NCBI RefSeq assembly: GCF_033807715.1
Contig: NC_084599.1
Location: 5,261,625 to 5,325,624 of the forward strand
Direction: 5' to 3'
DNA: 64,000 nucleotides
Origin: Cololabis saira
Lineage: Eukaryota > Chordata > Actinopteri > Beloniformes > Belonidae
Under the pieces are notes generated by a model that was not told the origin of the DNA, ran no database searches, and saw only the letters and a list, made by a program, of their open reading frames with translations. A program made the position numbers and the translations under genes. Shown in pieces: positions 19,401 through 25,400 of this stretch. Position 1 is the first letter of the stretch; each line of letters opens with the position of its first letter.

Positions 19401-22400
19401 GCGTACCTTGACCTCCTCGGTTACGGTGAACTGCTCGTGCTGGATGTTGTCCACTTCAACCATCAGGATGTTGGAGGAGGGCAGCGGCTGGAGCTCTGGA
19501 CTCAGGTCTGCCTCGGAAATCTGAGCAAAGAGCAACCCTGTCACTAGAGCCCTGCTATAGCAGGACGCTTTCCTTCATCCCGCTCAATTTATGACCATTA
19601 CCACCCGCACCTGTGTTACACTCCCGCCCGCAAAACTCTACACAATAATAGAGATGCATTGATTTAGTGTCTTCCCCCACCCCGCAAGAGAAACGTCCAG
19701 ACAAATCTACCTGATTTAATGTTAACATGATTGTAAAGGACCATATTGAGCCAATTTGTTTAGTTGATACATTTTTCTTTATGATAAACATGGGATTTGT
19801 TATGAGTATAATTTCAGTTGATTATTCTTTGGATGTGTCTTAAAATTGTAATTTCTTTTGTGTATATATTGTATTTAATATGATTTGTATGTAAATTGAC
19901 CGGAAATCCGCCCACATTATTTAAAAGGTCCGGCGGGCGGCTCCAGCTGTTGTTGATCAGCTGGCTTCTGACAGCCGGGTAAACCTTAAAACTTCCCTGG
20001 GCTTTCATACAGGATTGGGTCCCTTTTTGTCATCTGTGGCTCTGTGCCGGTCAGTCCATACATTTTTTTGTGTTGATGGTGATGAACAGACAATCACCTT
20101 TTCAGGGTCTGCTCTGTTTGTGCGAGAGGAAACCAGTTTGTTTCGCATTCCTTGGAGAGCGCAGCGAGGTACGATGTTTGTATTTGTTTTCTGGTTGTTT
20201 CCTTTGACAATTTGATATAGTTGTGTATGTTTTTAACATTGTATTATTAAATTAAGAACAGTTTCATTCATGAGTTTTCTATACGCGCTGTGGAAACTAG
20301 TTTTATAAATTGTTTGTATCCTTTTCCAGTTTTCACGGTGTCGTAAGGACTCTGTCGGCATGATTCCGGATGCGACTTCAATAAAACAAACCTTACGCAT
20401 CAGTCGAGACTCTCTACCTTTCTTCAAATCCAAGGTCTGCTACAGTGAAAACTCGGCGTGGTGAGTGAAATGTCAACGGCAGGAGCAGCGAACTCAGCGT
20501 GGTGAGAGACGTTGTTTAATAAAAGCACCGGACGAACTGAACCTTGAAAAGGATTATTCCCAAACGGACTGAAAAGGGTGGAATGGACTTTCAGAAAATG
20601 TAACAATTGCTTGATGATATTTTGAATGCGTTTGCCACATGAAAATATTCAAATGTTTGTGATTGAAACTTCATTTTAAATATATGGACGGTCTATGTAA
20701 ATGATGAGCAGTTAACTGTGGACTTTGTGTAAAAACCTGTGCTACATTCATATTATAGTCCATTATCTTGCATTTAGTCAAGTGATCAATCATATTAAAT
20801 AATGTCATCAAAAGAGGGAAATCAAAATGAAAAGCCTAATGACGCACAAGAACCGACCCCTAGTGGCCGTGAGCAGCAGCTCACAGAAAAGGGTAAACAA
20901 ATGCGTGAAGCAGGAGCTAAATGGCACATAACAGCATTCATAAAGGCTTATGAATCCTGGAAGCAGATGGCTAAAGAAGCCAGGACAAAGCTAAAGAAAT
21001 TCTGCGTCAAGGAGGATTTGGAAGATATAAACAAACGAGTTCAAGGTGGATATGATCGAGTAAACCAAAGTTACGGACCACTTCTGCGAAACTCTCTTAA
21101 TACTCCTGACATTATACAGAAAATGGATGCTTGTAATACGCTGACTACAGAGATCGCTGACCTCGTGAGTAGACGACTGGACAGAGGCCTTGATCAAAAC
21201 ACCTTTAACCCTGAAACTGAGAAACAAAGAGTGAGAATGATTTTAAATCGAGATGATCATGGGTCGATCTTTGGCGGAACTAACACCGAGACTGTTTTTG
21301 ATGAAAGGGAAGATAACTTGTCAGTCATTTCTAGAGCCTCAAAACGAGCAGATGCAGAAGCAGATCTTGCAGCTAAATGCGAGCAAGCAAAAGCAATGCT
21401 GGAGATACAAGTCCAGCAAGCCAAACTTAGTAAACTGGAGAGTGATTGGAAACTCCATGAGTCACAACTGTTGGTACAATTAAAACAAAAGCAGGCGGAA
21501 GTTGACTTGAAATTGCAAGAGGAGAAAACAAGGTTGAAACTGATGGAAGTCAAAATGGATGTTAAAGTGGCTGCAGCTCGTGTTCAAACATACAATCAAA
21601 TTGAAGGGGATGCTGCTGATGAGCCTTACAATCCAGACCCTGTTAGAGTGACTCCGCCTATGAATTTGAATAGTCATCTAGACACAGTAGCCATCTTTGC
21701 TGAAACAATCGCAAATTCACTCTCCTTAAATCGCCTCCCTGTTCCTGAGCCTACCACATTCGCTGGCGATCCTTTGAAATTTGTGGACTTTAAGGTGTCA
21801 TTTAGAACTTTGATTGACTCTAAACCTATTCCTGCAAGCGAAAAAATGCTGTACCTGAAAAGCTACCTTGCTGGTGAGGCACGTAAGGCTGTAGAGGGAT
21901 TCTTCTATCGGAGCTCTGAAGACGCTTATAAAGGTGCCTGGTCTGTTTTAAAGGACAGGTACGGCAATCCATTCGTTGTTCAGAAAGCTTTTCGAGATAA
22001 GCTGATGAAATGGCCTAAAATAGGTCCAAACGACCCCCTTGCTCTCAGAGATTTTTCTGACTTTCTAAAAGGCTGTGTAGAGGCCATGCCTCATGTTAAA
22101 GGGCTGTCTATCTTAAATGACAGCGAAGAAAATCATAAGCTTTTGAAGAAGTTACCAGACTGGGTTGTGCGCAAATGGAGCAGAATTGCTGTGGAAGAGC
22201 TTGATAAATCTGAAGAGTATCCAAGCTTTGAACACTTTGCTGAGTTTGTGCAGAAGGAGGCTCGCATAGCCTGTAATCCTATTGCCTCACCCTTCTTGTT
22301 TAGCGCTAGATCATCAGATGATACATTTCCCAAAGGAGTAAAGTCCCTTAGCACTAATGCCCAAGCTAAAAATCAGACATTCAAGATGTCAGAACATTTT

Positions 22401-25400
22401 TCTGACTCTGTTTCTAAGTCAAGGCTACCATGCATTGTCTGTAAGGAAGAGCTGCATGGCATCGCTAAGTGCCCTCTCTTTGCATCTCAGTCAATGGGAG
22501 AAAAAAGATCATTTATACATCAAAATCGTCTTTGCTTTGGATGTTTACGCAAAGGACACTTTGCAAAGGAGTGTAGAACTAGACATATCTGTGGAGTGTG
22601 TGGTCGACGACATCCCACTTGCCTGCACATGGTGGGAGAAAGGCAGAGTGGAGACACAGCAGAAGATGCTCCCACAGAAGAAGAACCAAGTACGGAAGTT
22701 CATGAAGCTCTGTCACATAGACTCATCCGTAAGGCGTCTGCCACTTCTAGTATCGTCCCAGTCTTCTTGTCATTCAATGGAGACCCTCAGAAGGAAATCC
22801 TCACATACGCTCTTCTTGATACGCAGAGTGATTCATCCTTTGTCTTGGAAAGTCTTATCAAAGAGCTAAATGTTATGACTCGACCACTCCAGTTAAAACT
22901 CAGTACAATGACTGCCATAGATACAGTAATGCCAAGTCAAAGCGTCTGTGGTTTGCAAGTTCGAAGCTTTAATCGTGGAAACCATTTGCAACTACGACAA
23001 GCATACACACGTGACTTTATCCCTGTTGATACGTCCTCTATTCCAACAAAGTCCACAGCATTGCAATGGCCACATCTCAAACATCTTGCCAACGAGTTGC
23101 CAGCGCTTCAAGATTGTGAGGTAGGGCTGTTGATCGGATACGACTGTCCTTCAGCCTTAGCACCCCTTGAAGTTGTTAGAGGCAGTGAGAATGAACCATT
23201 TGCACAGAAAACTGAGCTGGGTTGGAGTATAATAGGAGCCGCAAATCCTCACCTCGACAGGCAAAAGAAGATCAAAGTCCTAGAAACCACCATTGAGGAA
23301 TCCCAATGCAGACACCAGGAGCTGGCTCAGAAGAGTCTGCAGCACGAGGAGGAAATGAGAGCCCCGGAGGACTGTGAGATCGAGAGGGAACGTCTCCTGA
23401 TGCTCCAAGAGGAGCTGACTGAGCAGCCTGCCCTCAAAGAAAGCTTCCTGCAGGATGTTCAAGAGGAAGATGAGGAACCTGCCCGTGGTTCTGGGATTGC
23501 CAAAATGCTGGAGCTGTCTAGAGCCAGTCAAGATGACTCCAGTAATGGCGAAGGAGAAGAAAGAGAGATCAGCGAGGTAACAGGAACACTTGATGATCTT
23601 CAAACCCAGAACACCATGTCGCAGGATGAGCTCACTCTGATCAGTAATGTGAAGGGTGAGCTTGAGGCAGAGCCAAAGAAGACTTTCAAATGGGAAAAGA
23701 GGAGCTGGAGTTCAAAACCCATGAGATGCAAATGGCCATGGCTGGTGCTTCTACTGAAGGTGTAATGGTCATTAATCATGACCGGCAAGATCAAGATGTA
23801 GAGCCACTTACCAGTTCAACCCAAGACCAAAACTCCCAGCACAGCGAGGAGCATCAAAACCTGAACCAGGAGTTGAGAAACCAGTGTGAGGAACTGATCA
23901 GAGAGCAAAACACTGTCATAGCTGAGTGTCACCACATGGGGGACATGCTTTGCACCGTAGAGACGGAACTGGGTGAGAAAACAAAGGACTTTGTTGTACA
24001 ATATCAAGCCCTGAAGAAACATGGAGCTAATAAGGTACGACATCTTGAGGATGAGATTGAACAGCTCACTCAAGAGAGGGATGAGCTGCTGGCGAGGATG
24101 AGTGAGGTTGTTGAGGAGAAAAGCTCACCATCATGGAGAGAGCAGTTCAAAAATTGGTGCTGCTCCTGGAAAGTGAACAATGACATGGGAAACATGCGTA
24201 CGCAGACATGTACATTTGGCCCTTAGCATAGTAAACCATGTTAATTTGCACGTTTGAAGGATTAAATGGTCCTGAAGACTTAAATCATTCATAAATATGG
24301 AAAGGTTTCGGATTGAATGATTGGTGGGAGTGTAAAGGACCATATTGAGCCAATTTGTTTAGTTGATACATTTTTCTTTATGATAAACATGGGATTTGTT
24401 ATGAGTATAATTTCAGTTGATTATTCTTTGGATGTGTCTTAAAATTGTAATTTCTTTTGTGTATATATTGTATTTAATATGATTTGTATGTAAATTGACC
24501 GGAAATCCGCCCACATTATTTAAAAGGTCCGGCGGGCGGCTCCAGCTGTTGATGATCAGCTGGCTTCTGACAGCCGGGTAAACCTTAAAACTTCCCTGGG
24601 CTTTCATACAGGATTGGGTCCCTTTTTGTCATCTGTGGCTCTGTGCCGGTCAGTCCATACATTTTTTTGTGTTGATGGTGATGAACAGACAATCACCTTT
24701 TCAGGGTCTGCTCTGTTTGTGCGAGAGGAAACCAGTTTGTTTCGCATTCCTTGGAGAGCGCAGCGAGGTACGATGTTTGTATTTGTTTTCTGGTTGTTTC
24801 CTTTGACAATTTGATATAGTTGTGTATGTTTTTAACATTGTATTATTAAATTAAGAACAGTTTCATTCATGAGTTTTCTATACGCGCTGTGGAAACTAGT
24901 TTTATAAATTGTTTGTATCCTTTTCCAGTTTTCACGGTGTCGTAAGGACTCTGTCGGCATGATTCCGGATGCGACTTCAATAAAACAAACCTTACGCATC
25001 AGTCGAGACTCTCTACCTTTCTTCAAATCCAAGGTCTGCTACAATGATGATTGTGGAGTTTGATGGATAATTAACAGTTCATAGGTCACCTGACTGAAAG
25101 TTGGATGATAATCCATCACCGTCATCATCACACAAGCTATTTCGCCTTTCCCGCATCAATTATGTGGTTGAGGTTATAACAACGAGAGTAGCTGTGAGTG
25201 GCTCAAATAACTCTAATAAATAACATAAAATAAACAAAGTTAACAAATGAAACAAATTAATTTAAAGGGGATCTACTATGGCATCCAATCCCTATTTTAA
25301 ACAGGCCTTGACTGTCTTTAAAACAAGCTTTTGATTGTTTTTGCTAAATAAATTAGAAATTCAGCCTATGAACCATGTTTTTGGCCCAATCCCCCCCTAT

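Follow-up and report, generated by a model that had tools for sequence, protein, structure and literature searches.

A BEL/Pao-type element of Cololabis saira with a piece of host gcc2 in place of most of pol

The window analysed here, 64,000 nucleotides of contig NC_084599.1 of the fish Cololabis saira (positions 5,261,625 to 5,325,624), contains a BEL/Pao-type long terminal repeat (LTR) element at 19732-25043. About 865 nt of it match the host's own gcc2 gene (GRIP and coiled-coil domain 2, which codes for a Golgi protein) and stand in place of most of pol. We consider it highly probable, at roughly 0.93, that a BEL/Pao element captured spliced gcc2 mRNA by template switching of reverse transcriptase (RT), and that the hybrid spreads in trans as a pol-less satellite with the gcc2 part as a passenger. 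This reading is built on sequence comparisons between the window, the donor gene, a pol-bearing relative and further copies of the hybrid in the same genome.

The preliminary description of the stretch had reported a BEL/Pao retrotransposon with intact LTRs and a target duplication, and this is confirmed. The two LTRs (713 nt each, with TG...CA ends) have a single base difference, ATGAT stands as a 5-bp target duplication on either side, and Gag contains DUF1759, as in BEL/Pao elements. The open reading frame (ORF) at 20802-23765 is 987 aa long and matches Pfam DUF1759 at E 6.8e-19. It had been described as a full Gag-protease frame. The open frame and Gag are confirmed; no protease domain was matched in Pfam, and 'protease' is a label given to the later part of the ORF by the preliminary description and by us. 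This segment runs to the same GWSIIGA..NPHLDRQ as in the pol-bearing relative. As had been noticed, the frame passes GWSIIGAANP without a stop into a coiled coil, and from about 23262 the sequence is a different one, GC- and purine-richer. Since RT, Peptidase_A17/RNase H and integrase are absent from the window element, it is a non-autonomous derivative of BEL/Pao and not a full member. What is left of pol is the last ~20-25 codons, the end of the DUF5641 region, in a frame of their own which the gag fusion does not use. The parts of the element are the following.

19727-19731 (no strand): left target-site duplication ATGAT, read from the sequence
19732-20444 (+): 5' LTR, 713 nt, TG...CA, from LTR comparison
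20445-20801 (+): leader, the first 216 nt with 4 mismatches from the pol-bearing relative
20802-23261 (+): Gag (DUF1759) and the following segment, ending GWSIIGAANPHLDRQ; Pfam, and 93-95% identity to the pol-bearing relative in two stretches
23262-23277 (+): 5' junction zone, where element and gcc2 have CAA in common and resemble each other loosely over 14-16 nt, from alignment
23262-24126 (+): captured host gcc2 mRNA fragment, with an internal jump at 23317-23320 and an exon-exon join at 23439/23440, from the genome search
23690-24226 (+): second ORF of the preliminary description, the gcc2 fragment after a frame break plus an out-of-frame pol tail, from copy comparison
24120-24330 (+): pol 3' remnant and 3' untranslated part, with the purine-rich GGTGGGAG, presumably a polypurine tract, ahead of the LTR; from comparison with the relative
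24331-25043 (+): 3' LTR, 713 nt, from LTR comparison
25044-25048 (no strand): right target-site duplication ATGAT, read from the sequence

The ORF at 23690-24226 had been taken for a second coiled-coil frame. It is the same gcc2 piece past a 10-nt deletion, which breaks the gag-gcc2 fusion frame of the window copy and is absent from 13/13 other copies, and its last ~35 codons, from about 24120, are the C-terminus of pol out of frame; a separate second coiled-coil gene is therefore rejected. All Pfam matches to this ORF were below cut-off, and a search of solved structures gave one match, E 0.075, judged to be chance.

Host origin of the inserted fragment

The stretch 23200-24320 was used as a query against the window's own genome (1.146 Gb, 730 contigs; names such as C3, C6, C7 and C20 are contigs, and hybrid copies are named after their contig, for example C3a and C3b). 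It gave 24 matches, 14 of which, window included, are full or nearly full at 94-100% identity. The other 10 are three blocks of a gene on C6, two matches to a pol-bearing element on C7, four to a distant sister family, covering the first 64 bases only, and one 53-base piece near an LTR.

The gene on C6 matches 23262-23320, 23317-23439 and 23438-24126 of the window as separate blocks. A host intron of 139 nt (gtacaa...ttacag, L009 7647-7785) lies between blocks two and three and is missing exactly from the element, which implies that the fragment was copied from spliced mRNA. Between blocks one and two the host exon has 273 extra bases without gt..ag borders, and the jump is at a common AGGA. 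Intronless host exons thus stand within LTRs, with an intron-bearing parent on another contig, C6.

The identity of the coiled coil, for which the preliminary description had proposed a protein search, is clear from the homologues. A query of 547 aa from the same exon of the host gene, which overlaps the captured stretch in part, matches proteins annotated as GRIP and coiled-coil domain or as GRIP domain-containing. A fish GCC2 (P0038) aligns in order, in separate exons, along C6 25845654-25863484; residues 1-1490 of 1703 are covered, with the last ~210 outside the retrieved region and rows of 35% identity or less omitted. The part of the exon just downstream of the captured stretch has one match in the genome, the gcc2 locus itself. 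The captured part corresponds to residues 175-194 and 285-562 of P0038 and is without the Rab-binding and GRIP domains of GCC2 (P0038 1565-1674). A processed retrocopy made by a long interspersed nuclear element (LINE) does not fit: the piece lies inside LTR element sequence and there is no poly(A) at 24126, where it ends.

The 3' join has AAAGC (5 nt) in common between element and gcc2, and the 5' join has CAA (3 nt) within a loosely similar stretch of 14-16 nt, so that microhomology at the joins and the internal jump is 3, 4 and 5 nt. Together with the exact loss of the intron this supports the capture of a host transcript by template switching, as proposed in the preliminary description. 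It is highly probable that RT switched templates in a virus-like particle, onto spliced gcc2 mRNA, at these short common stretches. The gcc2 piece would then have replaced pol from just past the Gag-protease part to the last pol codons. The product retains the LTRs, the leader, the Gag frame and the 3' end and has no RT and integrase genes.

Hybrid copies and their pol-bearing relative

The stretch 23200-24320 recurs at 94-98% identity at 13 other places on 10 contigs, and the join can therefore not be an assembly artefact. Both junctions are common to the 14 insertions, and 5-bp target duplications are readable in 11/14. In the pieces examined of the remaining three, only the 3' LTR was found for C4 and C3b and only the 5' LTR for C14. 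The LTR pairs are complete in 10/14 copies, with 0 mismatches in 7 and 1 in 3 (C16b has an additional 2-base gap), which implies recent movement. In the captured part the copies are up to about 5% apart.

Two of the copies, C3:44854200-44866774 and 44964680-44969101, lie about 110 kb from one another and are nested or rearranged insertions. In C3a the 5' LTR is broken and a gag piece is inverted, and the gag of C3b is in pieces about 8 kb apart.

A close relative with pol was found on C7, with its LTR start at 28370067 and its LTR end at about 28377913. It is identical to the window at 95% in 23000-23277, 93% in 24120-24400 and 93% in 20802-22000. Its pol is in pieces, each of them open: RT with YVDD and the start of Peptidase_A17, integrase with H2C2 and rve, and DUF5641 to the stop. 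Against the curated cut-offs of Pfam, RVT_1 and rve are below and A17, H2C2 and DUF5641 above; the stretch after GWSIIGAVNPHLDRQ is open and has no Pfam match. The insert of the window thus stands where pol was expected, and a coiled coil native to pol is rejected, as the close relative has ordinary pol there and the insert is host gcc2. An 800-base RT query found one genome copy of this family, with the next match at 79%; the counts of 14 hybrid copies and 1 pol-bearing copy are lower bounds. The sister BEL/Pao family has four loci (C20:20735632, C3:55347055, C7:45314465 and C1:2593058), with gag 72% and pol 78-80% identical. A gag fragment at C20:40432060-40432653, which has 96% identity to the first 596 bases of the window gag but no match to the captured part, may be either a truncated copy or a second pol-bearing relative.

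The hybrids and the pol-bearing lineage have exchanged sequence at three places: the LTR, the leader and the tail. The LTRs of the hybrids C15, C20, C21, C3a and C7 are 7-9 mismatches from the pol-bearing LTR, as compared to 40-44 from five LTRs of the window type; a third LTR type (C13b, C9a, C9b and C14) is 49-59 mismatches from these five hybrids. On the gag side, by which we mean Gag through the segment ending GWSIIGAANPHLDRQ, these five hybrids stand closer to the window: over the last 340 bases they have 4-8 mismatches to it as compared to 16-18 to the pol-bearing element, and for C21 the difference between LTR and gag side has a Fisher p of 1.2e-6. The tail of the hybrid copy C7 (4079969) is 2 mismatches from the pol-bearing element and 10 from the window (p 8e-4 against its own gag side). 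The leader of the window has 4/216 mismatches from the pol-bearing leader; those of the 10 other comparable hybrids have 11-13 mismatches plus gaps from both (C4, C3a and C3b gave no match).

Such mosaics suggest joint packaging and recombination, and hence support mobilisation in trans, which had been considered in the preliminary description. It is also supported by the many insertions despite the missing enzymes, and by the presence of a partner with matching ends. The simplest cause of the mosaics would be template switching in common particles. The hybrid would spread as a Gag-encoding, pol-less satellite on enzymes from the pol-bearing sister lineage, and the RNAs of the two would be co-packaged and then recombine.

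Passenger or useful part, and other origins

The host sequence appears to be hardly constrained at the protein level. The ratio of nonsynonymous to synonymous polymorphism (pN/pS) in five representative copies, the window and eight others being left out, was 0.94 (95% 0.54-1.82) for the captured part as compared to 0.30 (95% 0.16-0.65) for the gag side at 22000-23255, with overlapping intervals. Codons with a single change were counted in 13 copies, identical for both sides and without C4, which lacks a gag piece for this purpose; they were 33 nonsynonymous and 29 synonymous on the gag side and 56 and 22 in the captured part (Fisher p 0.033; 2 codons with multiple changes per side were dropped, as were trimming gaps at the far end of the captured alignment). 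This suggests that the gcc2 part is most likely a passenger.

The alternative that comes closest, and which we think is rather unlikely, is that the segment is useful: a Gag-coiled-coil fusion would be made and its frame selected, for particle assembly or for avoiding the decay of an mRNA whose 3' untranslated part is long. In 13/14 copies the gag frame stays open through the captured part, and read in the host frame this part has stops in 0/14. Where 3.4 stops would be expected, the 84 substitution events among the copies produced none (Poisson P 0.034). Apart from the deletion of the window copy, the internal indels of the captured part measure 3, 12 and 12 nt, all multiples of 3. In three other copies read in orientation (L003, L005 and L007) the frame continues until a stop some 100 nt ahead of the LTR. 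The gag side has 4 stop sites as compared to 2.5 expected (13 copies), one in C20, one in C3b and two in C14, and gaps of 29 and 30 bases in C3b and C14. These weak hints of frame-keeping could reflect youth, and the stop-codon test treats the copies as unrelated. The pN/pS values, the larger nonsynonymous share and the broken frame of the window copy also speak for a passenger. Somewhat more doubtful still is that the Gag-GCC2 fusion is a working protein, the coiled coil being an assembly or packaging part in pol's stead, and that the satellite competes with and outnumbers its pol-bearing relative, although 14 hybrid copies were found as compared to 1.

Some points weigh against capture by template switching followed by spread in trans. 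The close pol-bearing copy found, a putative helper, is a single one, and the 79% sister family is a candidate alternative helper. The mosaics could in principle come from conversion at the DNA level, the exchange may have gone in either direction, and the 3-nt overlap at the 5' join may be chance. The synonymous divergence (dS) of about 0.15 between the captured piece and the host's own gcc2 also gives room for a capture in a related species.

The last point leads to a transfer, horizontal or introgressive, from another fish where the capture took place, which we find improbable. The captured part has a dS of 0.14-0.16 and a nonsynonymous divergence (dN) of 0.05-0.06 to the host's own gcc2, in spite of the very young insertions, and 37 substitutions are fixed between the host and all 14 copies in 846 columns, so the capture looks clearly older than the present insertions. 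Nevertheless, the captured protein is 85.5% identical to the host's own GCC2 over 289 aa, while its identity to the 111 other matching proteins compared does not exceed 65%. Residues 760-987 of the window ORF matched 201 proteins, the best 120 of which were listed, and none of the 152 proteins compared had a match to the gag tail together with one to gcc2 (E 1e-6). The compared proteins may miss close relatives of Cololabis saira, so a sister species could have been the place of capture.

It is very improbable that the fusion arose by splicing or read-through, from an element residing in a gcc2 intron, by splicing of a read-through transcript and its re-integration (3' or 5' transduction). This would account for exon sequences joined without their intron, but the 5' join is some 51 nt into an exon whose ag border puts its start near L009 7142. 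Moreover, the 3' join is within a long exon, the internal skip of 273 nt has no gt..ag, and the element's own 3' end comes after the captured part. An assembly join or private insertion instead of a mobile unit, which the preliminary description had named as contrary to its view together with a coiled coil native to pol, is refuted by the 14 copies with common junctions, 11 of them with readable target duplications of their own.

Known systems and neighbouring features

Oncogene-transducing, replication-defective retroviruses have a Gag-host fusion in place of pol and require a helper, and the hybrid would be like them in both respects. It differs in being a germline retrotransposon, with a host segment that lacks the Rab-binding and GRIP domains and is little constrained as protein. 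Oncogene capture by retroviruses is mostly observed in short-lived somatic lineages, while its analogue here sits in an assembled genome. Among plants, the LTR element Bs1 has three captured genes. In Bs1, an element of maize, pieces of host genes form part of a hybrid reading frame (review PMC13317346). The likeness is an LTR element with a host gene fragment in a hybrid frame; here the captured gene is a single animal gene, gcc2, in a BEL/Pao element, and a pol-bearing relative and recombination are visible.

For metazoan LTR retrocopies, Tan et al. 2016 is summarised in PMC5408686 as reporting mRNA brought into LTR cDNA by template switching at microsimilarities, and the summary names mosquito, zebrafish, chicken and Drosophila; the work is also cited in PMC8232201. 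The hybrid resembles these retrocopies, as summarised, in the uptake of mRNA at microsimilarities, and differs in its 14 copies, the Gag fusion in frame and the replacement of most of pol. Family features were compared with a BEL/Pao survey (PMC3118150): the LTRs and the DUF1759 gag are alike, as are the pol domains of the relative on C7, and the hybrid departs in having a host fragment instead of most of pol. Capture of host mRNA by LTR elements is thus already known in plants and, according to these summaries, reported in animals, zebrafish included. No paper on capture of gcc2 by a retrotransposon was found among the titles and abstract openings listed in the literature searches, where subscription papers are thinly covered, so absence is unproven. 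What is new is a BEL/Pao pol mostly replaced by a host fragment in frame with Gag, and multiplied while a pol-bearing relative persists. As a record of how an animal LTR retrotransposon captured a host gene it is unusually complete, with the donor gene, the pol-bearing relative, both junctions, the internal jump, 14 copies and the mosaics with the presumed helper all in one genome. This makes the uptake of host mRNA, the survival of hybrids after enzyme loss and the usefulness of captured segments testable.

Elsewhere in the window, 59763-60772 is a minisatellite with units of about 30/56 nt. Several of its frames are open (MDGWRGQAGW repeats), and the long ORFs there are repeat artefacts. A 210-aa ORF at 27697-28329 has no Pfam match; by eye it looks similar to the end of a LINE protein. 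Exons of an AAA protein, presumably mitochondrial Lon, were found at 10780-11424 (-), and exons of a radial-spoke-head protein gene at 37572-38294 (-), with a Pfam E of 1.6e-83.

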